Source: Nocardia asteroides
GTDB lineage: Bacteria; Actinomycetota; Actinomycetes; Mycobacteriales; Mycobacteriaceae
Assembly: GCF_900637185.1 (NCBI RefSeq)
Contig: NZ_LR134352.1
Location: 2,346,001-2,410,000, forward strand
Reading direction: 5' to 3'
Length of the DNA: 64,000 nucleotides
Shown one piece after another: positions 15,385-46,002 of the stretch (within the stretch, counting starts at the first letter, position 1; the number at the start of each line of letters is the position of its first letter). A program made the position numbers and the translations under genes. The notes beneath the pieces are model-generated. The model was not told where the DNA came from. It ran no database searches and was given only the letters and a program-made list of their open reading frames with translations.

Positions 15385-15469
15385 AGCCGGAGAAATGTAC
15401 TGCACAATGCAGTACCTAAATTCGCCATTCATCTAGTTCTATTTCTGACCCCCGAAGGGGTGATTTGCC

Positions 15470-23388: not shown

Positions 23389-23430
23389 CCACCCGCCACC
23401 CGCCCGCACGCACGAAAGGTATTGCCCGCC

Positions 23431-27180: not shown

Positions 27181-28329
27181 ATGTCGAAAACCAAGAACGC
27201 CGCCGTGGCCACGGAAACGGCCGCACCCGCCCCGGAACACGGTTCGCGGTCGGGTGTCGTGCCGGTGCTGCGCCGCGACAGCATCCGGGCGTTGTGGGCG
27301 GCGCTGCGGGCCCACCCCGACAGCACCACCGCCGCGCTGGCCGACATCGCCGGGATCGGCCTGTCGACCGCGCGGCGTCTGCTGGCTCAGTGGGAAACCG
27401 CCGGGTGCGCACAGTCGCACACCGACCCCGAATCGCCCCGGGCCGCCAAGACCTGGACCCAGGGCACGGGCGCACCCGCCACCATCGAACCGGACCCGGC
27501 CCCCGCCGCGCCCGCCGACACGGACCCGGCCGAACCCGCCACGCCGGAACCGGTTTCGCCGGAGACGGCCGAACCGGTCGCATCGTCTCCCGAAACCCCC
27601 GAGCCCGCACCTGAACCCGCCACCGTGACGGCGGCGGAAGTGCCCGCGCTGCACAGCGCCGAGGCACGGGCGCTGTGGGAGGCGCTGGAAACCCACCCCG
27701 CCAGCACCACCGCCGAGCTGGCGCAACTCGCAGTCATCGGGACCATTCCCGTGCGGCATCTGCTGACCGAGTGGGAACTCGCCGGGGCCGTGTGGGCGGC
27801 CACCGATCCGAGCAAGCCTCGGGCCGGGAAGCGCTGGACCGCCGGGGCGAAACCCGAACCGGCCCCGGCCGCGCCCGCCGTGACCGAAGTGGCGGACACC
27901 GCACCGGCCGAACCGGATCCCGCACCGGCCGAACCGGCGACCCCGGAACCGGTTGTGCCCGAACCGGCCGCGCCTGCCGAGCAGGCGGCCCCGGCCGACC
28001 CCGCGCCCGACACCACGGCGGAGATGGCGGTAGGTGCCCCCACGGGCGACGAACCCGCCACCGTGGCCCCGGAACCCCCGGCGGCGGCCGACAACACGGC
28101 TACGGCGGACGAGGAGTCGACGGTGGAACGCCTGCCCGCCGGTGCGCTGCGGGGACAGGTCGAGGACTTCCTGCACGAAAACCCCGGAAAGGAGTTCACC
28201 CCACACCAGATCGGTAAAGCCCTGGCCCGCTCCAGCGGCGCGGTCCACAACGCCCTGGTCAAGTTGACCGATGGCGGGACCGCACGCCAGACCAGCACGG
28301 CCCCCAAGAAATTCACCCTCGCGTCCTGA
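27181..28329 (+). CDS. Triple winged-helix protein with Pro/Ala linkers
   Basis: A 382-residue protein with three winged-helix-like modules separated by long Ala/Pro/Glu linkers. Module 1 is about 31-95 (IRALWAALRAHPDSTTAALA). Module 2 is about 158-222 (ARALWEALETHPASTTAELA) and is a clear repeat of module 1. Module 3 is the C-terminal about 65 residues (LRGQVEDFLHENPGKEFTPH, IGKALARSSGAVHNALVKL), homologous to the N-terminal module of the MoxR ATPase at 22168. GGAAGGAAATCCC precedes the ATG. It probably binds DNA or acts as an adaptor for the MoxR complex. No enzyme motif is visible. Confidence 0.78.
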   Translation: MSKTKNAAVATETAAPAPEHGSRSGVVPVLRRDSIRALWAALRAHPDSTTAALADIAGIGLSTARRLLAQWETAGCAQSHTDPESPRAAKTWTQGTGAPATIEPDPAPAAPADTDPAEPATPEPVSPETAEPVASSPETPEPAPEPATVTAAEVPALHSAEARALWEALETHPASTTAELAQLAVIGTIPVRHLLTEWELAGAVWAATDPSKPRAGKRWTAGAKPEPAPAAPAVTEVADTAPAEPDPAPAEPATPEPVVPEPAAPAEQAAPADPAPDTTAEMAVGAPTGDEPATVAPEPPAAADNTATADEESTVERLPAGALRGQVEDFLHENPGKEFTPHQIGKALARSSGAVHNALVKLTDGGTARQTSTAPKKFTLAS

Positions 28330-28983: not shown

Positions 28984-30435
28984 CTACTTGCTGCGGTCGA
29001 TGGCCTGGGTGATCCAGTCGGTCAGCACGGGGGCGGCGGTGGTGTATCCGGTGGCGTCGAACGCGCCCGTGTGGCCGTCCTGGGCGGCCGGAACGGCGGT
29101 CCCCGTGCCGGTGGCGCTGTCCGCTGTGCCCGTTCCGGCGGTGGTGGCGGTGTAGGTGTTGGTCAGGGTGGGGAACTGCTGGCCGGTGAACGCTGCGGCG
29201 GCGGCGGAGACGAGATCGGCGGCGACCGGTGCCAGCTCGGTCAGAGTCAGCACGGCCGCCACCGGGTCACCATCGGCGAGGAATTCCACGGCGGTCCAGG
29301 CGATCTCCTGCGCGCGGCCGACATCGGTGGCGATGCGGGAGATGTCGAGTCCGGCCAGGACACCGACGATCTCGGCGGCGATCGTCGCGACCCCGGTGGT
29401 GTCCAGCGGCGCGGCCAGCGCCAGAGCCCGCGCGATCAGGCGCAGGTCGAGTCCATCGGCCAGCTCGACCAGCGGGGCGAACTGGTTGTTGAGGTCACCG
29501 GAGACGCGGTGTACGCCGCGCACGTCGGCGGCGGTGACCAGTCCGGGTAGTTGGGCGAGGTCGGCCACGATCGCGGGCACGTTCGCGGTGAAGCTGGCGA
29601 GTCCGTTCAGCACGGTGACTACCTGGGCCAGAACCTGGGACACGCTGATCTGCCCGGTCGAGGACGAGCCGATGCTGATGGTCGGTGTGCTCGTCGTGGG
29701 GGCGGGGAGTCTCGTTGTGGTGGTAGGGGAGGTGGCGTCGGTCGGAGCCGAGCCGGACGTGGCGGTGGCCGAGGTGGCGGTGGTGAGGGCGCGGCTCACC
29801 GCGGCGAGGACGGGCGAGGACTCGGCGGTGGTCGAGCAGTAGCTGTCACCGTCGAGGCACAGCGTGCGGACCCGATCGGTCAGCTCGCCGAAGCCCTTCG
29901 TGCGTGGCCCGGTGACACCCTGCCCAGAGACCGGGGTACCGAGCTGGGCGGTGGTGGAGTCGCGGCGCGGGTCCGAGACGAGCGCGACAGCGACGACCCG
30001 AGAGGCCGGAATCGGACCCCCTCGATTGCCGAGGGTGGTGGCGAGGTCGCCGGTGACCTCGGCGCCCTGGCCGTAGCCGGCCAAAACGACTCGGGTGTCC
30101 GAGCACAGCCCCTTCATCCCCGCGGAGAGGTCCGCGCCGCTCACCGAACCCGCGCCGGTGGAGGGCGCGAGCGTACGGACCTCGATGTCGGTGCCGTAAC
30201 GCGTCGTCAGGGACTCCCCGAGCTGGGTGAGGATCCCGTTCGTGCTTTGCCCGATGGTAGGGGTCGTCTCGTAGGTGCCCGGTGCCAGCAGCGCGGTCCA
30301 GCGCGGGCACTTGGTACCGGTGCGGTCGGGTGTGGGTTCTGCGGCGGCGACACCGGCTGTCACAGTGGTCGCGGCGATGACCGCGCACAACGCCGCGTGG
30401 GCGTTGCGGCGGAGCTGGGAGCTGTTGCGGTGCAT
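28984..30435 (-). CDS. Exported cutinase-like protein lacking catalytic Ser and His
   Basis: A 483-residue protein with a signal peptide (ALCAVIAATTVTAGVAAA). The cutinase-like fold is seen from CPRWTALLAPGTYE; the nucleophile elbow reads LAGYGQGAEV with Gly122 (GGC) instead of Ser. The C-terminal triad segment LCLDGDSYCSTTAESS keeps the disulfide and Asp but shows no His. It is therefore a probable pseudoenzyme. A Thr/Ser/Pro-rich linker (about 220-260) leads to a long helical tail ending QAIDRSK. It is the last gene of the leftward transfer operon and may shape or bind the donor envelope. Confidence 0.8.
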   Translation of the reverse strand: MHRNSSQLRRNAHAALCAVIAATTVTAGVAAAEPTPDRTGTKCPRWTALLAPGTYETTPTIGQSTNGILTQLGESLTTRYGTDIEVRTLAPSTGAGSVSGADLSAGMKGLCSDTRVVLAGYGQGAEVTGDLATTLGNRGGPIPASRVVAVALVSDPRRDSTTAQLGTPVSGQGVTGPRTKGFGELTDRVRTLCLDGDSYCSTTAESSPVLAAVSRALTTATSATATSGSAPTDATSPTTTTRLPAPTTSTPTISIGSSSTGQISVSQVLAQVVTVLNGLASFTANVPAIVADLAQLPGLVTAADVRGVHRVSGDLNNQFAPLVELADGLDLRLIARALALAAPLDTTGVATIAAEIVGVLAGLDISRIATDVGRAQEIAWTAVEFLADGDPVAAVLTLTELAPVAADLVSAAAAAFTGQQFPTLTNTYTATTAGTGTADSATGTGTAVPAAQDGHTGAFDATGYTTAAPVLTDWITQAIDRSK

Positions 30436-31480: not shown

Positions 31481-32524
31481 TCACCAGGACTCGTAGGTCG
31501 GTGGCTGTGGGGGTGGCGGGGACAGAGTGACGATGCCGCTCTGCGGTGCCCAGCCCGGGTCGGGTTCGCTGTCGGGCTCGGGTGGGGTGCGCCGGGGCCA
31601 CGCGGTGGCGAGCTGGTGTAGGTGTCGCCTTCGAGAGCCGTTGGCGGCGTTGGCGGCGTTGGCGTCCAGGGGCAGCCAGACCTGGTCGGCGGGACTGGCC
31701 TCAAGGGTGGGGGCGAGGAGTTCGGCGGCGGCGGTGGCCACGGGCACGGCCTCGGGGTCGGGGAGCCGTTCCCAGGTCCGGTGCAGCGCCGCGCGGGCTT
31801 TGGTCTCGCGGGCGACGCTCGGCACCCAGAGCAGCACGGGGGCGACGACGCCGGTGGTGCGAGCTAGTTCGGCGTAGCCGGTGAGTTTCGCCGCAACCCG
31901 CGACAGCGCCGTGGTGCTCTCCAGGTCGTACTCGAGATAGAAGTCGAGCACATCCTCGGCGTGGGCGTAGCGGCCGAAGGCGTCGGGGCGGGCGAGGTCG
32001 CCCCACAAACGCTCGCAGCGGGTCTGCGACCACCATGCCTGGACCTGGGCGGGGTTGCCGCGCTGGTCGAGGGCGGGGTGGGTGATCAGGGCGGTGAACC
32101 ATTCGGCGACGCCGAGGGTGTGGGTCAGGTGCAGGCTGTGGCCGATGGCGAGGGCACGCTGATGCTGGTAGCCCAGCTCGCGCACCGTGATCCCGGCTTC
32201 CGCGGCGAGCACGCCTGCCCCGGCCGGTGCGAGTACCCAGTGCATCGGCGCGCTGCCCTCGGTGCGCCATGGCCGGAAACGGTCCACGACGCCGTAGCGG
32301 TGCAGCAGGTTCAGTCGCCGCAGCGCGATGGGCTGAGTGGGGAAGGCCAGGCTGGTGAGCTGGTTGGTGGTCAGGACGCGGTGCTCGTGCAGCATCCGCA
32401 GGATCCAGCGGTCGCGCTCGGTCAACCGGGAGACGAGCGCGGTGCTGTCGAGCGGCCGGGGCCGGGTCCGGTTGTCGGGGCGGGGACGCCGGTTGTCTGC
32501 CTGCTGGGCGGGACGGGAGAGCAT
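31481..32524 (-). CDS. Replication-relaxation family protein
   Basis: A 347-residue protein matching the Replic_Relax family found on Gram-positive plasmids and conjugative elements. A winged helix lies at about 30-90 (LTERDRWILRMLHEHRVLTT, RRLNLLHRYGVVDRFRP). A conserved core follows (HSLHLTHTLGVAEWFTAL; ARPDAFGRYAHAEDVLDFYL), containing acidic and His residues. The family is linked to plasmid replication and DNA relaxation, so this is the best candidate for the element's initiator/relaxase-like protein and for binding the iterons at 36949-37171; that link is inferred. Start ATG 32524. Confidence 0.82.
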   Translation of the reverse strand: MLSRPAQQADNRRPRPDNRTRPRPLDSTALVSRLTERDRWILRMLHEHRVLTTNQLTSLAFPTQPIALRRLNLLHRYGVVDRFRPWRTEGSAPMHWVLAPAGAGVLAAEAGITVRELGYQHQRALAIGHSLHLTHTLGVAEWFTALITHPALDQRGNPAQVQAWWSQTRCERLWGDLARPDAFGRYAHAEDVLDFYLEYDLESTTALSRVAAKLTGYAELARTTGVVAPVLLWVPSVARETKARAALHRTWERLPDPEAVPVATAAAELLAPTLEASPADQVWLPLDANAANAANGSRRRHLHQLATAWPRRTPPEPDSEPDPGWAPQSGIVTLSPPPPQPPTYESW

Positions 32525-32585
32525 CGGTGGCACAACCTTTCTCGGAACGAACAGACGGGCGGTGGCGGAGCTGTCGGTGGTCGGG

Positions 32586-35051
32586 TCACTCGTCGCGGTC
32601 CGGGCGGGTGTCGGTGAGGCGGGCGCGAGCGGCGGCAGCGATCTCCCGGGCACGCCCGGGGATCGGCGGGTCCAGCGGCCGGGTGGTGAGGGTGAACGGT
32701 CTGGCGTTGCGGCCGTCGACCAGCAGGCGGGCGGCTGCGTGGAAGGCGTCGAGGTGAGACAGGTCGTGCTCGGACAGCCACGGGTCGGTGTGGCGGGCCA
32801 GATCGCGCGCGTCGTCGGGCGACACGGCGAAGACGATCTTGTTGCGCGCGTTGGCCGAGATGCCGTCACGCAGTTCGCGCGAGAGCTGGCCCAAGTTCTG
32901 ATGCGCCAGGAGCAAGGAGAGCCGGAGTCCGCGGGCTTCGGCGAGCATGTCCTCGATCGGCGTGCTCAAGTTGAGGAAGTTCTGCGCCTCGTCGAGCACG
33001 AGCGCGGCGTCAGGCCGGTCAGCGGCGGCGACCCGGGCTCTGGCGGTCACTGCCTGCCATGTACGCGCGACCAGCAGTGACCCGACCAGTCGGGAGGTCT
33101 CCTCGCCGAGTGAGCCTTTCGGCAATCGGGCCAGGCAGATGCCGCCGTGGTCGAGGATGTCGCCGAAGTCCACGGTCGAGGGGCCACCGGCGATGGCCGC
33201 GCGCACGAACGGGCGCAGCAGGAACGCCCTCAGCTTGTTCAGTAGGGGGCCGGTGAGCTGGGCGCGGCCGGTGTCGGAGAGTTGCTCGTAGGAGTCCCAG
33301 AACCCGCGCAGGACCGGATCGGCGGTGGTGCGGGTGACCCGGGACCGGAACGCACCCTCGGTGAGCAGGCGGGGCAGGTCGGCCAGGGTCGCGGTCCCGG
33401 GCTGCGCGCACAAGGTGAGCAGGCTCGCGCGCATGATGTCGTCGGTGCGCGGCCCCCACCACTGGTGAAAGATCCGGCGGAAAACTGTGGTCAGGTTGTC
33501 GACCGCGAGATCCATCCCCGCGCGCCCGATCCGGCCGATGTCGAGCGGATTCACACACGGCGGAGCACTGGATGCGTCGGCGTCGAAGAGCACCACCCGC
33601 TCACCCATGCGCGACGGCAGCCTCGACAAGACATCGGTGACGAGGTCGCCTTTCGGGTCGATCACGATCACCCCGCGCCCCGCCTCGGCGTCATCGAGGA
33701 TCGTGCGCGCCAGCAGCGTGGATTTGCCGACCCCGGTCGGGCCGAGGATGTGCAGGTGGTGACGGGCGTCGGAGACTTTCACCGCGACCGGGCGGCGAGT
33801 GCCGGTGTCGGACATCCCCAACGGCTTCGTGAACTCCCCACCGACGGGGATCTCCGGTGCCGGGGACAGCGCGCGGGCTCCGGCGCGCTGCAGGCCCGGT
33901 AGCCCGTCGTCGGTGGGCAGATGGGCGATCGTGGCCAGCTCGGGCACCGACAACACATCCCCACGCCCGAGACGCCGCTCCCGGATCAACCGCTGAAGGC
34001 GGAAGAGTCGACGGCGACGCCGGTAGTAGTTGTGATCGGTGCACGCCCCGAACGTCGTGGCTAGAGCATCGGCGCGCCCGCGCGCCACCGCTCGCGCTTG
34101 GGCTGTCGAGTCGATCTCGGCGGGGTCGGTGGAGACCGGGATCGAGGCGGCATAGCGGACGACCGTCTCCCAATGCGCCCCTCGCGCTTTGGCCGCTGCC
34201 GCGCGGGCGGCGGCACTGTATTCCAGGGAGGTCTGCCGGTCGGTGCCCCGCGCGCTCCCCACCCCGGTGGCGGTGCGGGAGGCGCGACCGGTGCTCGAGC
34301 CGGGAGTGAGAAGGTCGAGGGCCTCGCGCAGCAGTCCCGCCGCGACACCGGCCCGGGCACCCGTGCTCGCCGCGGAGCGGGTGGCGCGGGCGACGCGGCG
34401 GCCGGTGACCGGGCGGGCGAGGATCTGCACGCACACTGCGTGACCGGGGCCCAGATCGTCGGCGGCGGTGATCAGGTTGCGCACCAGATCACCGGAGTGA
34501 TCGGTGCTCAGCGGGAGTCCCTCGTGGCGCCCGAGGCGCAGCTCGCCTCCGGCCACAATCCGCCGGATCCCTTTGACCGGGTTCGGCAGCGGGGGCCGGG
34601 CGGGTTCGGCTGTGTCGGTGTGCGCGCCGGGCCACGCCGAGGCGACAGCCCGCTCGATCAACCCGGGCGGAACCGTGCCCGGCACCCACAGCCGGATCGC
34701 CGCGCCTTCCTCGGGGGTGACGGTATACTCGAACCCCAGATGTGGCTGCCCCAGCAGCGTTCTCGCCCATGCTGGGCGGAGCTGGCCGATGAGGTGTGCC
34801 CAGAAGGTCAGTGCGCCTTTGGCGTCGACCTCCGGTGGGGTGAGCACGGTGATCTGGCGGGCACGCGCACTCAGCCGGCCTCGCCGCCACCGAACCGTGA
34901 GCCGTACCGCGGCGAGCACCGCGACACCGACCGCGACCAGAAACAGAGCATCGGCGGACACGAGGGCGTGTTCGAGAGCGTCGCGGAGGTCGGCCACGGC
35001 CCGGCTGGGCGCGAGAAGCGCCCGGCCCAGCCATCCCTGCTCGGGATTCAC
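32586..35051 (-). CDS. VirD4/TraD-like type IV coupling ATPase
   Basis: An 821-residue protein. A membrane segment lies near the N-terminus (ADALFLVAVGVAVLAAVRL, about 34-52). The motor domain has Walker A GPTGVGKS (437-444, Lys443), IVIDPKGDLV and Walker B ALVLDEAQNFLNL. The C-terminal half has the type IV DNA-transfer ATPase pattern (LLLAHQNLGQL, ARNKIVFAVSPDDA). It would dock the DNA-protein substrate and pump DNA. The GTG at 35051 overlaps the methyltransferase stop (GTGA), so the start is by coupling. Confidence 0.9.
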   Translation of the reverse strand: MNPEQGWLGRALLAPSRAVADLRDALEHALVSADALFLVAVGVAVLAAVRLTVRWRRGRLSARARQITVLTPPEVDAKGALTFWAHLIGQLRPAWARTLLGQPHLGFEYTVTPEEGAAIRLWVPGTVPPGLIERAVASAWPGAHTDTAEPARPPLPNPVKGIRRIVAGGELRLGRHEGLPLSTDHSGDLVRNLITAADDLGPGHAVCVQILARPVTGRRVARATRSAASTGARAGVAAGLLREALDLLTPGSSTGRASRTATGVGSARGTDRQTSLEYSAAARAAAAKARGAHWETVVRYAASIPVSTDPAEIDSTAQARAVARGRADALATTFGACTDHNYYRRRRRLFRLQRLIRERRLGRGDVLSVPELATIAHLPTDDGLPGLQRAGARALSPAPEIPVGGEFTKPLGMSDTGTRRPVAVKVSDARHHLHILGPTGVGKSTLLARTILDDAEAGRGVIVIDPKGDLVTDVLSRLPSRMGERVVLFDADASSAPPCVNPLDIGRIGRAGMDLAVDNLTTVFRRIFHQWWGPRTDDIMRASLLTLCAQPGTATLADLPRLLTEGAFRSRVTRTTADPVLRGFWDSYEQLSDTGRAQLTGPLLNKLRAFLLRPFVRAAIAGGPSTVDFGDILDHGGICLARLPKGSLGEETSRLVGSLLVARTWQAVTARARVAAADRPDAALVLDEAQNFLNLSTPIEDMLAEARGLRLSLLLAHQNLGQLSRELRDGISANARNKIVFAVSPDDARDLARHTDPWLSEHDLSHLDAFHAAARLLVDGRNARPFTLTTRPLDPPIPGRAREIAAAARARLTDTRPDRDE

Positions 35052-36064
35052 GCGGCCACCGATCCCGGGCCGGTGATCTCGGTGTTCGGCAGAGTCGCCG
35101 CGCTGCCGAACGGGAACCGGCCCGCGCGACGGCGTCCGGTCGCCTCGGTGGCTTCGGGCTTGTGCAGGATGATGACGTCCTCGTGGGCGATGAGGTGCAT
35201 CGGCAGCCCGGCCGCGCGCTGCTTGACAATGAAGTCGCGCTGGAAGAACGAGCTGCGGGCGATGAGTTCGCCGTCGGTGAGGCGGCCCAGCAAGGCCACG
35301 CACCGCTCCACCGGGACCAGCCCGGCCAGCTCGCCGCAGGTGTAGAGGTGGGCGGGCAGCGGCACGAGTTCGGCGTGCTGCCGCCACGGTCGCGCGGTGA
35401 TCACCACATACCCACCGGGCGCGAGGTATTCGGCGGCTCCGGCCAGGATCTTGGTGAACCCGGACAGCAGTCTGCCGAGGCCGACGTTGGCGAGGTTGCC
35501 GCGATCCAGCACCGCGCCGTAGCGGTGGTTGGACTTCAGCACCGGGTCTTTGCGGTTGGCGCGTACGTGCCCGTGCAAGCTGTCGCCGTAAGGAGGAGAA
35601 GTGATGACGAGCTTCGCCTGACCGCGTAGCTCGGCCGGGATCAGATCACCCAGCTTGCGGGCATCGCCGTGGAAGACGTCCGCGGCGAGATCGATCCCGG
35701 CCTCACGAGCGAGCTCGATGTTGGTGCGCGCCAGCTCCGCCCACCGCGACTCGTACTCCACACCCACCGCGCGGCGGCCCAGATGCAGGGACTCGACGAG
35801 GGTGGTGCCAATCCCGCACATCGGGTCGAGCACGAGGTCCCCGGGCCGGGTGTAGGTGTTCACGGCGTGGGCGACGATGGCGGGGAACATCTTCGCGGGA
35901 TGGGCGGTGCTGTCGGGGTGATAGCGGCCCCGCCGCTGCGCGGTGGGCGCGGTCTGCGCGGTGGCCCACACCGACACCGGCGCGACCGCCGGGCCGGTCT
36001 GTGCGGGGGTGCCGGAGTCGATGTCGGCGGTGGCGGTGGCGGTGGTGGTCGGTTCGAGAGTCAT
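35048..36064 (-). CDS. DNA N4/N6-type methyltransferase
   Basis: A 338-residue DNA methylase. VLDPMCGIGTTL (SAM loop, 78-89) and catalytic ITSPPYGDS (154-162) place it in the N4-cytosine/N6-adenine class, in beta order typical of solitary methylases. VVITARPWRQHAELVPLP follows. The start at ATG 36064 is favoured by AAGGAC 8 bp upstream; a longer start at 36121 overlaps the upstream gene and has no ribosome binding site. No restriction endonuclease is adjacent. It may protect the element from host restriction or mark its origin. Confidence 0.85.
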   Translation of the reverse strand: MTLEPTTTATATADIDSGTPAQTGPAVAPVSVWATAQTAPTAQRRGRYHPDSTAHPAKMFPAIVAHAVNTYTRPGDLVLDPMCGIGTTLVESLHLGRRAVGVEYESRWAELARTNIELAREAGIDLAADVFHGDARKLGDLIPAELRGQAKLVITSPPYGDSLHGHVRANRKDPVLKSNHRYGAVLDRGNLANVGLGRLLSGFTKILAGAAEYLAPGGYVVITARPWRQHAELVPLPAHLYTCGELAGLVPVERCVALLGRLTDGELIARSSFFQRDFIVKQRAAGLPMHLIAHEDVIILHKPEATEATGRRRAGRFPFGSAATLPNTEITGPGSVAA

Positions 36065-36113
36065 CGGGGCGTCCTTCGCGTGAGAGTTGCGGTGGGGCAG
36101 AGGGCGGATGGGC

Positions 36114-36758
36114 TCAGCCATGGGCGGGCTGGAGGAAGACGAAGACGTCGGTGTGCGCGACGGTGTGGCGCGCGTTGCCCGAGGGAGCCGGGGTGGGAGT
36201 CGCGGTGACGATCTGCCCGGAGATGGGGGCGGCGATGATGTGCTGGAGGTAGAGCAGATCGGCGGCTTGAGCGGCAGCCACGACCGATCCGGCCGGGTCG
36301 AACAGGATCCCGGAGTCGCTGTGTCGGCAGCGGGAGATAACGACCAGCAACCCGCCCATCGCGAGGACTTCGGTCGCGAGAGCGGTGATGTGCTCGGCGG
36401 CGGCGATCGGGTCGAGATGATCGGCGAGCAGGCTCGCGACGACCAGATCCACCGGCTCGCCCGTCAACGTTTGGTTGGCGGGGGCGTCGAGTCCGTGGCG
36501 TCCCAGATCGCCGATCGTGGACAGTGCGGCGGCGGTGTCGGGCTCGATGATCCGCAACGCCCCTCGGGTGACGGGGGCGGGCCAACCGAGCAGCATCACT
36601 CGCGCGCCGGGCGCGGAGAATTCGGTGATCGTGTGGACCAGAGCCCGATCGGGCCAACGGTCGTCGGGATCGAGCGGCTCGGACCCCAGCGCCCACAGGG
36701 TCGAGGGGACGCGCACGGCGGCGGAGGTGGAACGGGGTCGGCGGGAACTGGCGGGCAT
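36114..36758 (-). CDS. Methyltransferase-fold-like element protein, 214 aa
   Basis: A 214-residue protein heading the leftward transfer operon, with AGGAGG before ATG 36758. The order of elements resembles a Rossmann methyltransferase (FSAPGARVMLLGWP; GEPVDLVVASLLADHLDP; TEVLAMGGLLVVISRCR) but the first glycine motif is weak and no catalytic motif is seen. In similar elements such a protein precedes the DNA methylase, perhaps as a partner subunit. Function uncertain. Confidence 0.65.
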   Translation of the reverse strand: MPASSRRPRSTSAAVRVPSTLWALGSEPLDPDDRWPDRALVHTITEFSAPGARVMLLGWPAPVTRGALRIIEPDTAAALSTIGDLGRHGLDAPANQTLTGEPVDLVVASLLADHLDPIAAAEHITALATEVLAMGGLLVVISRCRHSDSGILFDPAGSVVAAAQAADLLYLQHIIAAPISGQIVTATPTPAPSGNARHTVAHTDVFVFLQPAHG

Positions 36759-36948
36759 TGTGGCCTCCTGAGCGAGAGAGCGGTGTGTACTCGCTTACTT
36801 CCGCCAAAAAGCCGAAATCGGGACACGGGTGCCCGATATTTTTTCTGAGAATTTCCTGAGGCTGAAAATTGGGCCCGGGGAAGGCGGTCCGTTCACTGGG
36901 GTTAAGAATTTTTTTGAGAATTTTTGTGCTGGGTTGCCGATGAGGTGT

Positions 36949-37003
36949 TGCGCACTATCCGGAAACTATCTGAAACATATCCGGTTCATATCCTGGCTCT
37001 ATC
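36949..37003 (-). repeat. 11-bp iteron array, left arm (5 units, minus strand)
   Basis: Read on the minus strand there are five contiguous 11-mers: GATAGAGCCAG, GATATGAACCG, GATATGTTTCA, GATAGTTTCCG, GATAGTGCGCA. Each begins GATA. The 28-bp part at 36966-36993 is an inverted copy of 37105-37132 with three mismatches. Confidence 0.8.
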
Positions 37004-37032
37004 CGCACCTTCACAAGTGCAGGTAGGAGTAC

Positions 37033-37048
37033 ATATCCGGGCGGATAT
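37033..37048. repeat. Central palindrome ATATCCGGGCGGATAT
   Basis: 7-bp arms ATATCCG/CGGATAT around GG, lying between the two iteron arrays. A copy with one mismatch occurs at 21732-21747. Confidence 0.7.
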
Positions 37049-37105
37049 CCGGTGGTCTGGTGGCGGCGTGGCGAGCGATAGCGAAATATTCGCCAATCCG
37101 CGCAG

Positions 37106-37171
37106 GATATGACTTGGATATGTTTCAGATAGGGTTTGGATAGGGTTTGGATGCGTTTCGGATATGGGTGC
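37106..37171 (+). repeat. 11-bp iteron array, right arm (6 units, plus strand)
   Basis: Six contiguous 11-mers on the plus strand: GATATGACTTG, GATATGTTTCA, GATAGGGTTTG (twice), GATGCGTTTCG, GATATGGGTGC. The array points opposite to the left arm and ends 50 bp before the GTG of the next gene. The 11-bp period puts every site on one DNA face. Confidence 0.82.
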
Positions 37172-37221
37172 GAGGTGTCCTTGCGAGGTCGGAAGTTCTC
37201 GACCGAACAAGGAGATCTGTA

Positions 37222-38148
37222 GTGACGAATTCACACGTAGCGACATATGCGGGACCGGGCGGAAAGCCGGGCTCGCCGCTGGCGGTGGTGTGGGCGGGCT
37301 TCGACCGGATGGCCGCCGAAACCCTGCCCGCCGACCCGCGCCCGGTGCCTACCTCGCAGCCCGACCCCGCCACCCCGGTGCCGACGTGGGGGCAGTTGCG
37401 CGAGCGGCTGTGGCACCCGGCCACCCCGATGGCAGAGGTCGACACGATCTGGGTGTGGCTTCTGCAACGGGTCCGCGCCCAGGAGGCTGACGCGATGCTC
37501 GTCTGCGCTGGGCTGGCCGCGCCGATGCTGTCGCGGACCGCCAGTGAGTGCGTGACCTCGAGCCACACCGTCCGCCACGACATCGAGTCCGAAATCCTGA
37601 CCGCGTTCCTGGCCCATCTCCCGCGCGTCGGCCTGGACCAGCCGGGGGTATGGCATCGGCTGCGTTGGGGTGCCTACCGTGCGGCTCTCGCGGCGGCAAC
37701 TGGTCAGCGAACCAGCGTGACCATCGTCGGAGACCTCGACCGTGACCTGGCTGCGCTGGGGGAGCAGGGCCAGGCGATGGTGTCGGAGCCGGGGCACCCC
37801 GAAACGGTGCTGGCCGATGCCGTGGCCGCTGGAGTGATCTCCGCCGACGCGGCCGAACTCATCGCCGCGTCACGGTGGGAGGGCCGGTCACTGACCGCCT
37901 TGGCCGCTGAACGTGGTGTGTCGCTGTGGAAGTTGCGCAAGCAGCGGCCCCGCGCCGAACGCGCTCTGCTCGCATGGCTGAACGACCGTGCCCGCGACGT
38001 CGATCCCGAGCGCACCAGCCCGGTCGAGGCGGCGGCGGTCACCGCCCTCGCACCACCGGATCGGTCACCGCGGCGAGGTCGCCGGCCGAACCGGCACTCG
38101 GTCACTCCAGCACCGTCGAGCATCGAGCACGGGCAGGTGGCGGCATGA
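37222..38148 (+). CDS. HTH (sigma-70 region 4-like) element protein, 308 aa
   Basis: A 308-residue soluble protein, first gene of the rightward transfer operon. AAGGAG lies 7 bp before the GTG. Residues about 215-265 (ADAAELIAASRWEGRSLTAL, AAERGVSLWKLRKQRPRAERAL) form a helix-turn-helix like sigma region 4. The N-terminal part is helical and acidic, and the C-terminus is basic and disordered. It could regulate the divergent promoters, perhaps by binding the iterons 50 bp upstream. The stop overlaps the pilin-like gene start (ATGA). Confidence 0.7.
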   Translation: MTNSHVATYAGPGGKPGSPLAVVWAGFDRMAAETLPADPRPVPTSQPDPATPVPTWGQLRERLWHPATPMAEVDTIWVWLLQRVRAQEADAMLVCAGLAAPMLSRTASECVTSSHTVRHDIESEILTAFLAHLPRVGLDQPGVWHRLRWGAYRAALAAATGQRTSVTIVGDLDRDLAALGEQGQAMVSEPGHPETVLADAVAAGVISADAAELIAASRWEGRSLTALAAERGVSLWKLRKQRPRAERALLAWLNDRARDVDPERTSPVEAAAVTALAPPDRSPRRGRRPNRHSVTPAPSSIEHGQVAA

Positions 38149-38543
38149 ACACCAACCAGGGACATCTCGACCAGACGACGCCACGGTCAGCTCGGCGCGC
38201 GCGGCATTGGCTGCGGGTGCTCGCGGTCGCGGCCACGAGCATGGTGCTGCTGGTACTGATCACCGGATCCGCTTCGGCGACACCACCGAACACCGATGTG
38301 CTGGCCATCGCCTCGTCGTTGGGGGAGGTCATCGACAACGCCCGCAACTGGCTGGTGGGCATCCTGGCCGGGCTGGCGACGTTGTTCTTGACCATCGCCG
38401 GAGCCCGCTACCTGCTCGGCGGCGGCGACCCCAGCGAGATCGAGAAAGCCAAAACCGCCTTCCGCGCCGCGTGCCTGGGATACGCGCTGGCGATGCTGGC
38501 CCCGGTCATCGTCGCCGTGCTCAAGTCCATCATCGGAGCCTGA
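38145..38543 (+). CDS. TrbC/VirB2-like pilin or small T4SS membrane protein
   Basis: A 132-residue protein. A signal peptide-like segment (VLAVAATSMVLLVLITGSASA) is followed by two hydrophobic helices (LVGILAGLATLFLTIAGARY; ACLGYALAMLAPVIVAVLKS). Size, the two-helix topology and the position before the TrbL-like gene match VirB2/TrbC-type proteins of actinobacterial type IV secretion. The start overlaps the upstream stop. Confidence 0.82.
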   Translation: MNTNQGHLDQTTPRSARRARHWLRVLAVAATSMVLLVLITGSASATPPNTDVLAIASSLGEVIDNARNWLVGILAGLATLFLTIAGARYLLGGGDPSEIEKAKTAFRAACLGYALAMLAPVIVAVLKSIIGA

Positions 38544-38545
38544 CC

Positions 38546-40417
38546 GTGACCACCTCGGCCCAGGCACCCCCGGCACCCGCCCGGTTCACACCGGCCGCAC
38601 GCATCGCTGCCGCCAGCGCAGCGGCGGTGCTCGCCGCGGTCCTGATCGCGCTCACCAGTTCCGCCGATGCCGCCGCCCAACCCGCCACCCCAACACCGGC
38701 CCCGCCGGTGACCACCGCACCGGCCACACCCGCCCCGACAACCCCTCCACCGACCACCACAACCCCACGCCGTTGGGTGACACCACCCTCGACCACCACC
38801 CCACCGACAACGACCGCGCCCGGCACGACAACGGCACCCGGATCCGGTTCTGGCTCGGGGTCGGCGGAGTGCGGGGTCACCAACATCAACGGTTGTGTGG
38901 AGAACGCCGTCGACGGGTTCTTCCAGCGGATCGTGGAGACCTCGCTCAACCCGCTGCTGGAACTGCTCTCGCACACCCTGCTCACCACACCCGAACCCGG
39001 GGAGATACCCGAGATCGGGGCTCTGTGGAATCAGTCGTGGCAGATCGTGGTCGCGCTCTACGTCCTGGTCGTGATGGCCGCAGGTGTGCTGTTGATGATG
39101 CGCGAGACCGTCCAAACCCAATGGTCCATCCGCGAACTCGCCCCCCGCTTGGTGATCGGGTTCGCGGCCGGGGGATTGAGCATGATGATCGCCACCGCCG
39201 GAATCGGTTTCGCCAACACCCTCGCCGGTGCACTGGCCGGAGACGGTGTCGACTCCGGATCGGCCGCCGACGCGCTGTCCGAGCTCGCATTCACCAGCCA
39301 CCAGAGCCGAGGCGTGTTCGTGCTGCTGCAACTGGCGCTGTCGGTGATGCTGTTGGTGCTGCTCATCTCCTACGTCGTGCGGGTCACGATCACGATCCTG
39401 CTCATCGTGGGCGCGCCCCTGGCGTTGATGTGTCACGGGCTGCCCGGCCTCGACGGCATCGCCCGCTGGTGGTGGCGCTCCTTCGCCGCGTGCCTGGCGA
39501 TCCAGGTCGTGCAATCACTGACCTTGGTGACCGTCCTACGGGTCCTGCTCACCCCCGGCGGCTGGCACCTCTTCGGCCCCGACACCAACGAGATCGCCGA
39601 CCTCACCGTCGCTTTGGCGTTGATGTTCGTCCTGATCAAAACACCGATGTGGCTGTTGTCGGTGCTCAAGATCGGGCAAGGCCGCTCGTTCCTCGGGTCG
39701 ATCGTGCGCGGGTTCATCGCCTACAAAACCCTCGGCATGCTCAAAGGAGCCACCTCGAGCAGCGCCCGTACCGCTGCCTCGGGGGCATCGGCACGGCGAC
39801 CTCCTCGCCCTGCCCGCGCCCCACGAGCACCTCGCACCGCCGCCAGCAGTGGGCCGCCCGATCCGTACGCGCGGGTGCGCTCGACACGAGACGGGCAGCT
39901 CATGCTGCCCCTGGAAGGAGTCCGCCGGGTCGCCAGGCAACCTAGCCCAACACCGGCCGAGGCGACCGGCACTCCACCGCCGCGTCCCACCCGGTCGGCG
40001 AGGGGACGCCAGCTCGCGCTCGACTTCACTCCGCCGGACCCGTACCGGGGGATCCGCGCCGGGGCCGGGGGACAGTACCCACTCCCGATCCCCGTGCGCC
40101 GCGTCCGCACGACACCGGCGGCCCCGGCCCCGCCACCGGAACGCCCCACCCCTCGACGGCGGACCGAACAGCTCGCCTTCGACTTCACCGAACCCACCCC
40201 GCCCGACCCGTACGCGCGTCTTCGCCCGACGCGCAGCGGCCAGTACCCGCTGCCGTTCCCCGTCACCCGGGTCAAACCCGCCCCACCGCCACCGAACCCA
40301 CCACCACCCGCACCGGCCCCGGCACGTCCGGCGGGGCGGCAGCTGCATCTGCCAATGCCCGATCTGCCCGTGCGCCGCCGCGCGCCTCGCGCCCCGAGAG
40401 GAGGAAACCTCCAGTGA
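38546..40417 (+). CDS. TrbL/VirB6-like conjugation membrane protein with repeat tail
   Basis: A 623-residue protein, GTG start 2 bp after the previous stop. A first hydrophobic helix (AAAVLAAVLIALTSSADAAA) and a Thr/Pro-rich stretch precede a core of about six membrane helices (about 165-415), e.g. IVVALYVLVVMAAGVLLMM and VMLLVLLISYVVRVTITILL. The cytoplasmic tail (about 430-623) is Pro/Arg-rich and contains imperfect repeats with QLALDFT/QLAFDFT, PPDPYxxxR and GQYPLPxPVxRV. It would form the inner-membrane channel; the repeat tail is unusual. Confidence 0.82.
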   Translation: MTTSAQAPPAPARFTPAARIAAASAAAVLAAVLIALTSSADAAAQPATPTPAPPVTTAPATPAPTTPPPTTTTPRRWVTPPSTTTPPTTTAPGTTTAPGSGSGSGSAECGVTNINGCVENAVDGFFQRIVETSLNPLLELLSHTLLTTPEPGEIPEIGALWNQSWQIVVALYVLVVMAAGVLLMMRETVQTQWSIRELAPRLVIGFAAGGLSMMIATAGIGFANTLAGALAGDGVDSGSAADALSELAFTSHQSRGVFVLLQLALSVMLLVLLISYVVRVTITILLIVGAPLALMCHGLPGLDGIARWWWRSFAACLAIQVVQSLTLVTVLRVLLTPGGWHLFGPDTNEIADLTVALALMFVLIKTPMWLLSVLKIGQGRSFLGSIVRGFIAYKTLGMLKGATSSSARTAASGASARRPPRPARAPRAPRTAASSGPPDPYARVRSTRDGQLMLPLEGVRRVARQPSPTPAEATGTPPPRPTRSARGRQLALDFTPPDPYRGIRAGAGGQYPLPIPVRRVRTTPAAPAPPPERPTPRRRTEQLAFDFTEPTPPDPYARLRPTRSGQYPLPFPVTRVKPAPPPPNPPPPAPAPARPAGRQLHLPMPDLPVRRRAPRAPRGGNLQ

Positions 40418-43287
40418 GCACCATCGTGCGCATTCCCGCCGACGTCGACCGCTCCGACCGGCTCCTCGGTCCCTTCACCGCCCGCCAACTCGCCGTCCTC
40501 GCCACCACAGCCGTCCTGCTGTATTCGACCTGGGCCGCCGCCCGAACCGTGCTGGCTCTGCCGGTGTTCGCCGTCGCCGCTGCTCTGGTGTTCGTCGTCG
40601 TCGCGGTCGCGGTGCTCACCCGCCGCGACGGCTTGTCAGCCGACCTGCTGCTCGTGGCAGCGATCCGCCACCGCCTTCGGCCGCACCGCCTGGCCAGGAC
40701 CCGCGTTCAGGCCCACCCGAAATGGATCTCCCGTCGCAGCACCAGAACCCGCTCGCAACCGCCGACACCGGCTCTGTTGACCGCGCAAGCGGCGCGACTC
40801 CCGAAGTCGGTGTCTGCCAGCAGTGGGGGAGGCGGTGACGTCGCCGTGATCGACCTCGGCGCCGACGGCCTCGCTGTTCTCGCGGTCGCCGGGACCCTCA
40901 ACCTGTCGCTGCGGACCCCAGCCGAACAAGACAGCCTCGTCGGCCAACTCGCGGGCTGGCTGCACACCCTGCGCCAACCCGTGCAGATCCTGGTGCGCTC
41001 GGCGCGGCTGGACCTGACCGAACACATCACCGGCCTGCACACCGCCGCATCCCAGATGTCGGCCGACCTCGCCGCGGCAGCCCTCGACCACGCCGACCAC
41101 CTCGCCGACCTGGCCGCCCGCGAAGACCCGGTGCACCGGCAAGTCCTGCTGATCTGGCGCGAACAGACCGCGTCCCTCGCTTCCACCGGATTGCGTGCAC
41201 GGCTGCCCGGCCGGAAACAGGCTCAGCGCACGCTCTCGGGTGGCGCGCGCCGCGCCGCCGAGTCCCGGCTCCTGCGCCGGATGAACGAAGCCGCCGATGT
41301 CCTGCACCCACTGGGAATCTCGGTCACCGCACTCGACAACGACGCCGCCACCGCCGTCCTGACCAGCTGCACCAACCCCGAGAGCCTCGTCTCGCCCGCC
41401 GCCGACATCACCACCGCCGACACCGTGATCACCACCGACCCCGACACCCCGACCCCGGACCCGTTCGCCGGGGAAGGACTCGACCGGTTCGCCCCGGAGT
41501 CCCTCACCATCGGCACCCGGCACCTCGAAATCGGATCTGACTGGAGTGCGACCCTCGCAGTCACCGGATACCCGCGCGAGGTGACGGCCGGCTGGCTCGC
41601 ACCACTTCTCTCGCACCCTGGGCGAGTCGAGGTCGCCGTGCACGTCGAGCCCGTCGACCCGGCCACCGCCGCCACCCGGCTGCGCCGCCAGCAGGCCCGC
41701 CTCGAATCCTCCCGGATGCATGATCTCGGCCGGGGCCGCCTGACCGACCCGCAGGTCGACGTCGCCGTCGAGGACGCCGCAGACCTCTCGGCCCGCGTCG
41801 CCCGCGCCGAGGCACGCCTGTTCCGGGTCGGGGTGTATCTCACCGTGCACGCCGCTTCGGAAACCGAACTGGCCGACGAGGTGGCCGCAGTGCGGGCGCT
41901 GGCGGCGAGCCTGCTTGTGGACACCTGCACCCTGTCCTACCGGGCAGCTCAAGCCTGGGTGACCACGTTGCCTCTCGGGCTCGACTTGATCCGGGTCCAG
42001 CGGACTTTCGACACCACCGCCCTCGCCGCGGCATTCCCCTTCGACTCACCCCAACTCCCCGCCGTCGACCCCGCCCAGGCTGCCCGACCCCAGGGAGTCC
42101 TATACGGCCGCGACGCCGCGTCGGGGTTGTTGTTCGTGGACCGTTTCGGGCATGAGGCGCACAACCACAACCTCGTCGTGCTGGGACGTTCGGGCGCGGG
42201 CAAGTCGTATCTGGTCAAAACCGAGATCCTTCGGGCGTTGTATCGCGGGATCGAGCAGGTCGTGATCGATCCCGAAGACGAATACCGCCGCCTCGCCGAG
42301 TCCGTGGGCGGCACCCACATCCGCCTCGGCGCACCCGGGGTGCGGCTCAACCCGTTCGATCTGGAAGTCCACACCCGATCCGACGGCCGCCGCAGCGCAC
42401 CAGCCGATGGGCTCACCCGACGCAAGCTGTTCTGCCACACCCTGATCCAGGTGCTGCTGGGAAACCAGAACGCCGCGCAACGGGCGGCCCTGGACGCCGC
42501 GCTGGCAGCCACCTACACCGCCGCCGGGATCACCGACGACCCCACCACCTGGACCCTGCCCGCGCCCACGCTGAGCGGACTGCGTGATCAGCTCGGCCAG
42601 CTCGGCACACCCGCTGGGGCCGAGCTGGCTGCCGGGCTGCACCCCTACACCGGGCAGGGAGCCTATGCCGGGCTGCTCGACGGGCCCACCACCACCGAAC
42701 CCGAGGGTGGGCTGATCGTGTTCTCGCTGCGGGAGCTGCCCGACGAGCTGAAAACCATCGGCACCCTGCTCGTGCTGGACCTCACCTGGAGGCGGGTATC
42801 GAACCCAGGCCAGCGTCGGCCTCGCATGATCACCGTGGACGAGGCATGGCTACTGCTGCGCGAACCTGCCGGAGCCGCATTCCTGTTCCGAGCGGCGAAG
42901 AGCTTCCGCAAACACTGGGCCGGACTCACCGTCGCCACCCAGGACTGCGCGGATGTGCTCTCGACCGATCTGGGGCGCGCGATCATCTCCAATGCCGCGA
43001 CCCAGATCCTGCTGCGCCAGGCACCTCAAGCCATCGACGAGGTCGCCACCGCCTTCCACCTCTCCGACGGCGAGCAACAGTTCCTCCTCTCCGCCGCACG
43101 CGGTTCGGGACTTCTCGCGGTCGGCGGCGACCGCGCGGTATTCGGGTCGCTGGCCTCGGCCACCGAGAACGCGCTCATCACCACCGATCCCGGCGAACTA
43201 GCAGCGGCCACGGAATCGCAGGACACCGAAGTCGGCATCGACTCCGACGAGACGGCCCACGAAACAGTCGACCGATGGGCGGCGTGA
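40414..43287 (+). CDS. PrgI-VirB4 fusion, conjugation ATPase
   Basis: A 957-residue protein, GTG start overlapping the TrbL stop (GTGA). Residues 1-95 are PrgI-like, with two membrane helices (LAVLATTAVLLYSTWAA; LPVFAVAAALVFVVVAVAVL). Residues about 130-540 are the VirB4 N-terminal region. The ATPase core has Walker A GRSGAGKS (591-598), VVIDPEDEYR, Walker B RMITVDEAWLLL and GLTVATQDCADVL. It powers assembly and transfer. PrgI and VirB4 are more often separate genes; a fusion also occurs in some actinobacterial elements. Confidence 0.9.
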   Translation: MSTIVRIPADVDRSDRLLGPFTARQLAVLATTAVLLYSTWAAARTVLALPVFAVAAALVFVVVAVAVLTRRDGLSADLLLVAAIRHRLRPHRLARTRVQAHPKWISRRSTRTRSQPPTPALLTAQAARLPKSVSASSGGGGDVAVIDLGADGLAVLAVAGTLNLSLRTPAEQDSLVGQLAGWLHTLRQPVQILVRSARLDLTEHITGLHTAASQMSADLAAAALDHADHLADLAAREDPVHRQVLLIWREQTASLASTGLRARLPGRKQAQRTLSGGARRAAESRLLRRMNEAADVLHPLGISVTALDNDAATAVLTSCTNPESLVSPAADITTADTVITTDPDTPTPDPFAGEGLDRFAPESLTIGTRHLEIGSDWSATLAVTGYPREVTAGWLAPLLSHPGRVEVAVHVEPVDPATAATRLRRQQARLESSRMHDLGRGRLTDPQVDVAVEDAADLSARVARAEARLFRVGVYLTVHAASETELADEVAAVRALAASLLVDTCTLSYRAAQAWVTTLPLGLDLIRVQRTFDTTALAAAFPFDSPQLPAVDPAQAARPQGVLYGRDAASGLLFVDRFGHEAHNHNLVVLGRSGAGKSYLVKTEILRALYRGIEQVVIDPEDEYRRLAESVGGTHIRLGAPGVRLNPFDLEVHTRSDGRRSAPADGLTRRKLFCHTLIQVLLGNQNAAQRAALDAALAATYTAAGITDDPTTWTLPAPTLSGLRDQLGQLGTPAGAELAAGLHPYTGQGAYAGLLDGPTTTEPEGGLIVFSLRELPDELKTIGTLLVLDLTWRRVSNPGQRRPRMITVDEAWLLLREPAGAAFLFRAAKSFRKHWAGLTVATQDCADVLSTDLGRAIISNAATQILLRQAPQAIDEVATAFHLSDGEQQFLLSAARGSGLLAVGGDRAVFGSLASATENALITTDPGELAAATESQDTEVGIDSDETAHETVDRWAA

Positions 43288-43623: not shown

Positions 43624-43911
43624 ATGGACGAGGAATTCTCGGATGAGGCCGTGGTGATCCCGCTGAACAAGCGCGCTCGCCGCTCGCACACCGGCGACGA
43701 GGTGCCGGGGCACGTCGACGCCCGCGTGGGTGAACTGACGGCCTCGTTCCAGATCCGCTACGTCAGCGGGGCCGAGGCCGAACATGTCGCCGACCGGCAA
43801 GCCCGCGCGATCTCGGCGCTGCTGCGCTGGCTCGACAGCCACGACCCGGCCCCCGCCGAGCTGGTCGATCTCGACGCCATCACCGCCGACGGTGAGCAGG
43901 AGGCGGCATGA
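43624..43911 (+). CDS. Small acidic protein preceding the recombinase, 95 aa
   Basis: A 95-residue protein with AAGGAGAA 9 bp before ATG 43624; the frame is open further upstream but without coding character. An acidic N-terminus (MDEEFSDEAVVIPLN), a basic patch (KRARRSHT) and a helical part (AEHVADRQARAISALLRWLD) are seen. The stop overlaps the recombinase start (ATGA). Strict coupling suggests a recombination accessory factor (directionality factor-like) or regulator; this is inferred from position only. Confidence 0.6.
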   Translation: MDEEFSDEAVVIPLNKRARRSHTGDEVPGHVDARVGELTASFQIRYVSGAEAEHVADRQARAISALLRWLDSHDPAPAELVDLDAITADGEQEAA

Positions 43912-45788
43912 GCCTGCCCGCATTCGCCGGATCCGACAGCCCGGACCTGCTCGGGATGGGCGGCTCGTCCCCGGTCCCGGTGGCGGTGTTCCTGCGCACC
44001 TCGACCCGGGATTTGCAGGACCCCACGTTGTCGCTGCCGCGCCAGCTCGACAACTGCCGCAAGGTGCTGCCGAACGGGTTCGTGATCGTCGCGTTCTTCT
44101 ACGACGTCGAATCCTCCCGCAAAGACCTCGAACTGCGTGGCCTGGGCAGCGCGCACGAGGCGTTCGACATCCCCATCCCGCGTGACGGCGGTTTGGCCGA
44201 TCTGATGGCCGAAGCCCGCCACCCCAATCGCCGGTTCGAAGCGGTCGTGGTCGAGGAGATCGAACGCGCCGCCCGGTGGACCCACCAGTCCACCCAGCTC
44301 GAACACGAGCTGGAAAAGGTCGGGGTGCCACTGTTTGCCGCCGACGAGGGACCGATCTCGCTGTCGGAGAAACGTGCCACCCAGATCCTCGTGCGCCGCA
44401 TGAAACAAGGTGTCGCCGAATGGTTCCTGCGTCACACCCTCGAACAATCGTGGGAGGGATTCCGCGAACACGCCAAACAGGGCTGGAACATCGGCAAAGC
44501 CTGCCACGGCTACCGCAACGAGAAACTCCCACACCCTGTCGCCGCGAAACGCGAGGAGGGCCGCACCAAATCCCGGCTCGTCGTGGACCCCGAACGCGCA
44601 CCCGCCGTGGTGCGGATCTTCCAGCTGCGTCACGACGAGAACCTCGCCTACCAGGTGATCGCCGAACGGCTCAACACCGACCCCGACCGCTACCCGCCCC
44701 CGCAACCCAACAGCGGCAAACGCGCCCGGGGCCGCTGGTCGGGGTCCTCGGTCCGCGAGATCCTGATCAACCCCAAATACACCGGCTACATGGTGTGGAA
44801 CCGGCGCGCCAGCAAGAAAGGCGGCGCGCTCGTCCCGCCCGAGAAATGGGTGTGGTCACCCGAGCCCACCCACGAACCCCTGGTCACCCGCGCGGTGTGG
44901 GACGCGGTGCAAAACAACAGGACCACCCGCCAGGGGTCGCGGATGAGCGTGAAGAACACCCACCCCGACACCTACCGCACCTACGTGCTGCGCTCGTTCG
45001 TCCACCACCAGCAGTGCAACAAGAGGATGTTCGGCAAAACCCGCAAGGGCTACGGCTACTACACCTGCCAACCCAAACTCGACCTCGTCGGCAAACCCGA
45101 GGAATACGCCGACCACCCCCGCTCGGTGTACGTGCGCGAAGACAGGCTCCTCGACTGCGTCGAGACGTTCTTCAACGAACGCGTCTTCGGTCCCGACCGC
45201 GCGACCCTGCTGCGCCATCAACTACGCGGGCAGTCCTCGAGCAAGGGCCACGACCTCGAGCAGCGGGCCGCCGCGATCCACAAGACCCTCACCGACATCG
45301 CCCGACGACAGGACAACCTGCTCGCCGAGCTGGAATCCCGCCCCATCACCGGCGGCGACGAGCTGTCCGACGCCTGGGCCGAACGGTTGCGTCGCCGCTA
45401 CACCGAACTCGAACAGCAACGCCGCACCAAAAACGCCGAGCTGGAGACCCTGCGTGAACAAGCCGCCCGCCAGCAACCCGACGAACCCGCTCTCCTGGAC
45501 CACCTGCCCCGGCTAACGCTGCATCTCACCCGCGCCCCCGACGTCCTGCAACGCGACCTGTACGAGGCGTTCGGCATCAAGATCGTCTACGACCACACCG
45601 GCAAACACGTGACCATCTACGCCACGCTGACCGAAGAAACACTCCCCGACGCCGCCACAGCCGCCGCACCGCTGACCCCCGCTACAACCCCCGAAACGGG
45701 GCCCGTACCGCCACCAGCGCACAGCGGCGGCGGTACGGGGCTACCCGGCACGCCACGGGAAACCGCTACTACAGTTGCCCATGTTCTT
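43908..45788 (+). CDS. Large serine recombinase (integrase), no stop inside the element
   Basis: The N-terminal resolvase domain has catalytic Ser32 in FLRTSTRD followed by LPRQLDNC and the VVVEEIERAARW strand. The recombinase domain follows (YRNEKLPHP, RGRWSGSSVREILINPKYTG). A zinc-ribbon segment (HHQQCNKRMF, YGYYTC), a coiled coil (ARRQDNLLAELESR, RRRYTELEQQRRTKNAELE) and a Pro/Ala-rich tail complete it. About 627 residues lie before the tRNA-Arg gene. The frame has no stop here: it runs on through the tRNA (antisense) and stays open to 47897. The given end is the tRNA boundary, not a stop codon. It would catalyse integration/excision at this tRNA. Confidence 0.85.
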
Positions 45789-45790
45789 CG

Positions 45791-45864
45791 TGCCCCCGGC
45801 AGGAATCGAACCTGCGACCTAGGGATTAGAAGGCCCTTGCTCTATCCAACTGAGCTACGGAGGC
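45791..45864 (-). tRNA. tRNA-Arg (UCU)
   Basis: Read on the minus strand, the cloverleaf folds as acceptor GCCTCCG/CGGGGGC, D-arm GCTC-AGTTGGATA-GAGC, anticodon loop CTTCTAA with anticodon TCT, T-arm GCAGG-TTCGATT-CCTGC and discriminator A at 45791. The anticodon stem closes with a C-T mismatch at 31-39. The 3' end points at the recombinase gene, so the tRNA 3' half is the probable attachment site, still functional after integration. CCA is not encoded. Confidence 0.95.
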
Positions 45865-46002
45865 AGTGGCATCCACCTTGGCCGAACTCGGCCCCGGTGT
45901 CCAGCGCGAAAAGTATAGCGACCGACCAGATCTATGGGCGGGGTCGGCGGCGACGACGCCCCATCGGGGCGGCTCGGAGCAGGCCGAACTACCCTCGTGG
46001 TC

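Follow-up and report, generated by a model that had tools for sequence, protein, structure and literature searches.

Opposed arrays of 11-bp repeats form a conserved, probably regulatory site between the divergent transfer operons of a Nocardia conjugative element

A 64,000-nucleotide stretch of the Nocardia asteroides chromosome (contig NZ_LR134352.1, positions 2,346,001 to 2,410,000; here called the window, with coordinates counted from its first letter) carries an integrated conjugative element of the type IV secretion system (T4SS) type, assigned as such because an integrase, a relaxase, a coupling protein and a VirB4-type ATPase occur in one element. Between its divergent transfer operons lie two opposed arrays of 11-bp repeats, which are a real and conserved, probably regulatory site of this element. 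The following features were established directly: the arrays, their pitch, the opposition of the arms, the change of the repeated word between related elements, the fixed distance to a downstream box, a covarying hairpin, and the fact that among the element proteins compared the product of the first gene of the right operon follows the word best. We refer to this gene, like others, by its first coordinate (37222).

All units in both arms (Table 1) are spaced exactly 11 bp. In the left arm TATC starts at 36956, 36967, 36978, 36989 and 37000; in the right arm GATA starts at 37106, 37117, 37128, 37139 and 37161, and the unit at 37149-37159 has GATG instead of GATA. The array bounds include the G (or A) preceding GATA. 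The eleven units have the approximate consensus GGATAKGNYYY, with GAT in 11/11, the first G in 9/11, the fifth-position A in 10/11, the seventh-position G in 8/11 and mostly pyrimidines at the ends. A preliminary description of the window had reported five GATA 11-mers on the minus strand and six on the plus strand; that layout was confirmed, except that the plus-strand array holds five GATA units and one GATG unit. The same description had noted divergent transfer operons, a 28-bp inverted repeat with three mismatches between the arms, and a palindrome in the intervening segment. The first of these is correct, the repeat was found exactly at 36966-36993 and 37105-37132, and the palindrome at 37033-37048. 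Our repeat search lengthened the inverted repeat to 41 nt at 83%.

The plus strand of the window contains GATA 49 times, and outside the arrays no more than two copies fall in 11-bp phase anywhere. With periods of 8-10 and 12-15 there were never more than two in phase in the window. In the whole 6.98-Mb genome three GATA in 11-bp phase were found only in these arrays and in one isolated match at 3146075. No promoter was found by consensus, no promoter assignment was reached for the conserved blocks between the arms, and an Rfam search gave a single weak match without meaning. The DNA separating the left array from the left operon includes an AT-rich stretch (36838-36925) with the motif TTTTTnTGAGAATTT at 36840 and 36909; Nocardia relatives have stretches that look similar by eye.

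A search of 301 genomes of the family gave homologs of the 37222 product in 10, two of them weak, and in the order 79 of the 397 genomes searched had one. Two short peptide patterns, run against species genomes, yielded 37 loci, all titled Nocardia. As upstream regions we used 59 distinct sequences, of which 31 are from Nocardia and 28 came out of the order search, and the best 11-bp array of each region was scored against 20 dinucleotide shuffles of that region. The array beat all 20 shuffles in 52 of 59 regions, comprising 31/31 from Nocardia and 21/28 of the others; the failures were L083, L084, L085, L087, L091, L093 and L097, and L081 and L082 passed narrowly. Lack of conserved phasing in relatives, which the preliminary description had named, together with absence of binding, as speaking against its reading, did not occur. 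Self-match of the Nocardia regions peaked at lags 11, 22 and 33 (0.359, 0.329 and 0.303; other lags 0.239-0.289), and the non-Nocardia regions had weaker peaks at lags 11 and 22 (0.309 and 0.295). Among more distant homologs, 19 of 20 had no array above 8 shuffles, the exception being L144; in several of them hexamers such as CTGACA are repeated without regular spacing. The upstream regions of L097, L138, L140 and L143, which lack an 11-bp array, contain five or six irregularly spaced copies of CTGACA. In N. arizonensis W9405 (L031) the 37222 protein is 100% identical and the right array has seven units, exactly one more than in the window. A two-arm pattern of the GATA word matched 13 of 148 genomes of the genus; the reversed-pattern control matched none.

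The word itself varies. Grouped by eye, the Nocardia regions have GGATA, GGGTG, GGGGG, GGAGG or GGGGA, and the non-Nocardia regions GGTAC, GTAGTA, GAGGCG, GTGGCG, CTTGTTC or GCTAG. On average, left arms fitted the word of their own right arm above the words of other elements (mean z 1.32, permuted maximum 0.47, p=0.0001, n=49). The own word was among the top five for 25 of 49 left arms; L077, L080 and L086 are among the poor fits. This set comprised 49 of the 59 regions, leaving aside the array failures, L073, and L072 and L074, in which no left arm was visible. As judged from these sequences, both arms tend to change their word together between elements.

Which element protein follows the word was examined in the Nocardia elements with all seven compared proteins (17 of 31 complete, 15 after removal of near-duplicates). 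The highest value belonged to the 37222 product (0.70; partial 0.42, p=0.002), the lowest to Replic_Relax (0.19; partial -0.12). Small partial values were obtained for the product of 36114, the first gene of the left operon (0.26, p=0.040), and for the small membrane protein of the right operon (0.24, p=0.024). The lead of 37222 recurred in 15 of the 28 non-Nocardia elements (0.60, partial 0.57, p=0.001), where 36114 had 0.24 and a partial of -0.14. A joint set of 36 elements was also compared, arm by arm; it omits the array failures, L073, and L075, L077, L079, L080, L081, L086, L090, L092 and L095, which have no clear left arm, and retains L072 and L074. Left-arm partials in this set were 0.23 for 37222 (p=0.002) and 0.12 for 36114 (p=0.048); for the right arm they were 0.56 and 0.35 (both p=0.002). 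The 26 Nocardia elements of the set had left-arm partials of 0.16 (p=0.024) and 0.03. Adjacency of gene 37222 to the arrays counts as no evidence, because the relatives were found through this gene.

The preliminary description had proposed that the site is bound by Replic_Relax or by the HTH (helix-turn-helix) protein of 37222. Our results favour the latter, which tracks the word best, and disfavour the former. Replic_Relax was rejected as reader: its distance ignores the word, and by eye its N-terminal helix has no residue pattern dividing GGATA from GGGTG elements. The protein encoded at 27067-28329 was also considered and set aside, being variable and apparently part of a MoxR/VWA gene set.

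The 37222 product has no Pfam or NCBIfam family, and a search against sequences of solved structures returned one match, to an unrelated hydrolase (E=0.4). The model predicted for it is similar to sigma factor region 2 (residues ~69-164) and region 4 (~187-260); support for this likeness from the sequence is weak. The protein is thus predicted to have a sigma-factor-like fold with an HTH. Its model shares with the ECF-type (extracytoplasmic function) sigma factors SigL, SigR and SigmaE two correctly ordered domains that resemble regions 2 and 4. It differs from them in the weak sequence support, in an extra N-terminal segment, and in that its presumed sites are 11-bp tandem arrays, not a -35/-10 promoter. 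In the homolog at L054 (7995-9374) an extra C-terminal Replic_Relax winged-helix domain is present, and by eye the same holds for L052. We found no description of the arrays or of the 37222 family in a literature search that covered titles and abstract openings, was partly directed at analogues and left subscription papers mostly outside; in the excerpt available of a review of Gram-positive conjugation (PMC6540685), neither Nocardia nor direct repeats occurred. We regard the 37222 product as an undescribed candidate reader.

Between the right array and gene 37222 two further elements were found. Fifteen bp before a (G/C)TGTCC-type box the stretch starts like an array unit in 28/28 Nocardia regions (GG in 26, CG in 2). 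These are 28 of the 31 regions; L049, L053 and L060 have no match to the box pattern. The hairpin that follows (-17.5 kcal/mol, z -2.4, with 4/200 shuffles as good) overlaps with its 3′ side the Shine-Dalgarno sequence AAGGAG (37209-37214) of gene 37222. The seven pairs of its lower stem were 90.2% paired in 41 chosen leaders, with compensatory changes in relatives: 29 cells were changed on both sides and the covariation was 0.410. None of 500 shuffles reached the observed pairing, double-changed cells or covariation, and sliding gave a covariation of at most 0.224. Double-changed pairs (4, reached in 184/500) and further pair types (12, 189/500) were unexceptional in number against shuffles. 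The set, the window plus 40 of 59 leaders, is a favourable selection: it omits near-duplicates (L031, L032, L034, L041, L043, L049, L061, L063, L064, L083, L089) as well as leaders whose Shine-Dalgarno hairpin was poor or missing (L035, L052, L077, L079, L081, L092, L095, L097). The hairpin most plausibly restrains translation of gene 37222.

On balance we think it probable that the arrays serve as a multi-site operator by which the 37222 protein, with its predicted sigma-like fold, controls both transfer operons. We infer that this protein binds the units and acts as their reader, that it represses or activates, and that the bound arms may be bridged. The 37222 product would bind the units head to tail by its region-4-like HTH; one subunit per 11-bp unit would place all subunits on one face of the helix. 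The arms point to the operons they flank, like -35 elements toward their gene, and the promoters would lie between or at the arms. Bound arrays, possibly bridged, would set the level of both divergent operons and of the 37222 protein itself, and the hairpin, by keeping translation of gene 37222 low, would act as a second brake. The autoregulatory role suggested for the site in the preliminary description is favoured by the word tracking, by the somewhat better values of 37222 for the left arm, which adjoins the other gene, and by the HTH of the sigma-like predicted model.

The 36114 product retains some word signal, though 37222 leads throughout. The recognition helix is identical in some GGATA and GGGTG elements, which speaks against a simple helix code. 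In a test with 51 regions (failures and L073, which has a stop inside the match, dropped; 42 after removal of near-identical ones) helix distance contributed only 0.145 once the N-terminal part was accounted for (p=0.022), non-significant in either subset, and the N-terminal part added more beyond the helix (0.375, p=0.001). As far as sequence comparison goes, it is the whole 37222 protein that follows the word, and its helix is a candidate for the reading part.

A bolder version of the operator model is possible but doubtful: a highly divergent element-encoded sigma-like factor would read tandem -35-like words at a constant 11-bp pitch in two opposed arms as a filament operator. Pitch, arms and the distance to box and hairpin would stay as a scaffold, with word and reader rewritten in step, giving each element its own address for transfer control. 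We do not claim a true sigma factor with tandem -35-like units, because the spacings from units to box are incompatible with a usual -35/-10 pair. Strict privacy of the word is opposed by 4 of 13 genomes (G314, G328, G343, G397; by eye) that hold two GGATA elements. Word exclusion as a form of incompatibility was considered and rejected on the same count: co-resident elements often differ in word, yet these same-word pairs argue against the word as a strict exclusion label.

Similar arrangements are known. The stbDRs of plasmid R388 are two sets of five 9-bp repeats with two-nucleotide spacing around the stb promoter; they are bound by a protein of the stb operon, and deletion of stbA raised transfer ~50-fold (PMC3098194). 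Compared by site layout, they share with our arrays two repeat sets at 11-bp pitch beside transfer genes; they differ in that R388 is a plasmid, whereas the arrays described here are opposed and have their word rewritten between relatives. R388 also provides, with ArdK (PMC9723621; PDB 7bca), a precedent for direct-repeat binding by a sigma-like HTH, but ArdK is a KorA-family protein of 102 residues with a two-copy repeat whose spacing varies between plasmids, unlike the 308-residue 37222 product with 5-7 units at fixed pitch. BldC (PMC5859096) and RdfS (PMC11963761) are, as proposed for 37222, HTH proteins that oligomerise head to tail on DNA; on smeA-sffA about one turn is covered per BldC, and RdfS, an ICE (integrative and conjugative element) protein, controls ICE excision and transfer. 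Both belong to winged-HTH families, and their sites have 9-bp repeats or no clear consensus.

We weighed four other explanations. The arrays may be a relaxosome accessory site in or beside the origin of transfer (oriT), at which the reader makes the DNA ready for the relaxase or links it with the secretion channel. Their position between the operon for relaxase and coupling protein and the operon for the channel fits this, as do the constant distance to a conserved box with a hairpin after it, and the R388 stb operon, which has the same repeat pitch, adjoins oriT and whose StbA affects conjugation (PMC3098194). No nic site was identified, however, Replic_Relax tracks the word worst, and a hairpin over a Shine-Dalgarno sequence suits translation control better; we consider this explanation, which takes up the oriT alternative of the preliminary description, possible but unlikely. 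The hairpin, at its fixed distance after the right array, could also belong to a system in which the repeats are read as RNA. Transcripts starting between the arms would have leaders with sense arrays, since the arms are inverted and each is in sense for its own operon, and an RNA-binding protein would switch the Shine-Dalgarno hairpin. TRAP-like logic is the model for such reading. Against it stand the strict 11-bp pitch over up to seven units, which is what DNA helical phasing predicts, the likeness of the candidate reader to a DNA-binding protein and, by eye, the lack of such a hairpin at the same distance from the window's left arm. RNA-level reading is in our view very unlikely.

In the third explanation, a centromere-like partition site, the reader would pair or position the excised element, as ParR does on parC or StbA on the stbDRs. 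The parC site of R1 reportedly has ten repeats flanking a promoter. Two repeat sets around a promoter are the stbDR layout of R388 (PMC3098194), ParR of R1 requires 11-bp repeats, and related plasmids have different repeat words, which determine specificity (PMC9426499). ParR is a ribbon-helix-helix protein, though, and in ParMRC both sequence and spacing vary, unlike the fixed spacing here. A Pfam scan of eight neighbouring proteins gave no match to ParM or ParR, and the nearest candidate ATPase (19633-21420, P-loop by eye) lies at a distance of 15 kb and has the score of a BTAD regulator, which makes a partition site highly improbable. The preliminary description had suggested an origin of replication (oriV). 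The iteron-like look of the arrays and the AT-rich, internally repeated stretch beside the left arm, which would be the unwinding element, are in line with it. This part of the earlier interpretation was not supported: the region had no match in 72,556 plasmids, a single partial protein match lay on a 2.8-Mb replicon, no known initiator besides Replic_Relax was recognised among the window proteins scanned, and the element is integrated. We give an oriV hardly any credence.

The organisation of the element around the arrays is listed in Table 1. Gene 36114 is the divergent partner in 37/37 Nocardia loci and in 22/28 other loci examined. Replic_Relax is counted among the MobC-type relaxase families (PMC5357655). 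The right operon also encodes a TrbL-like protein, with a match just under the cut-off. The right edge of the element is at the tRNA-Arg gene. The serine recombinase frame is open for 1329 codons (43908-47897), through tRNA-Arg into a CtaG/CopD gene (45934-48069). In or near the element there are also a MoxR-like AAA ATPase beside a VWA/CoxE-like protein (22168-25251) and two cutinase-family genes (15460-17628 and 28984-30435), the latter adjoining an NlpC/P60 protein where the left operon ends.

Table 1. Position of the arrays, associated motifs and genes of the element in the window
Feature	Position	Strand	Remarks
Left array	36950..37004	-	five 11-bp units, oriented toward left operon
Right array	37105..37170	+	six 11-bp units, oriented toward right operon
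Block TTCACAAG..CAGGTAG	37010..37026		between arms; in Nocardia relatives ~TACACAAnnnCTGGTAGA, by eye
Inverted repeat ATATCCG-GG-CGGATAT	37033..37048		between arms; word on both strands
GTGTCC box	37175..37180	+	fixed distance downstream of array
Hairpin TCCTTG..CAAGGA, upper stem GGTCG..CGACC	37178..37213	+	between right array and gene 37222
Replic_Relax (PF13814)	31481..32869	-	left operon
TraG/TraD-like coupling protein	32586..35387	-	left operon
N6_N4 DNA methyltransferase	35048..36121	-	left operon
Gene 36114	36114..36758	-	first gene of left operon; 214 amino acids, no family match
Gene 37222	37222..38148	+	first gene of right operon; 308 amino acids, GTG start
Small membrane protein	38145..38543	+	right operon; VirB2/TrbC-like by reading only
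PrgI + VirB4-like ATPase	40414..43287	+	right operon; best NCBIfam model conju_CD1110, under its cut-off
Serine recombinase gene	from 43908	+	after right operon
tRNA-Arg(tct)	45790-45864	-	similarity to a relative's element ends at 45863

How conjugation is controlled has been little studied in actinobacterial elements that use a true type IV channel; a survey listed 17 putative elements of this kind versus 144 of the FtsK type (PMC3218068). The relatives provide a natural series, with an operator word that differs between elements at constant geometry, beside an undescribed candidate reader with a predicted sigma-like fold. Such a series would allow testing how a DNA-binding protein and its repeated site shift specificity together, and the arrays give a handle on what switches these elements on.
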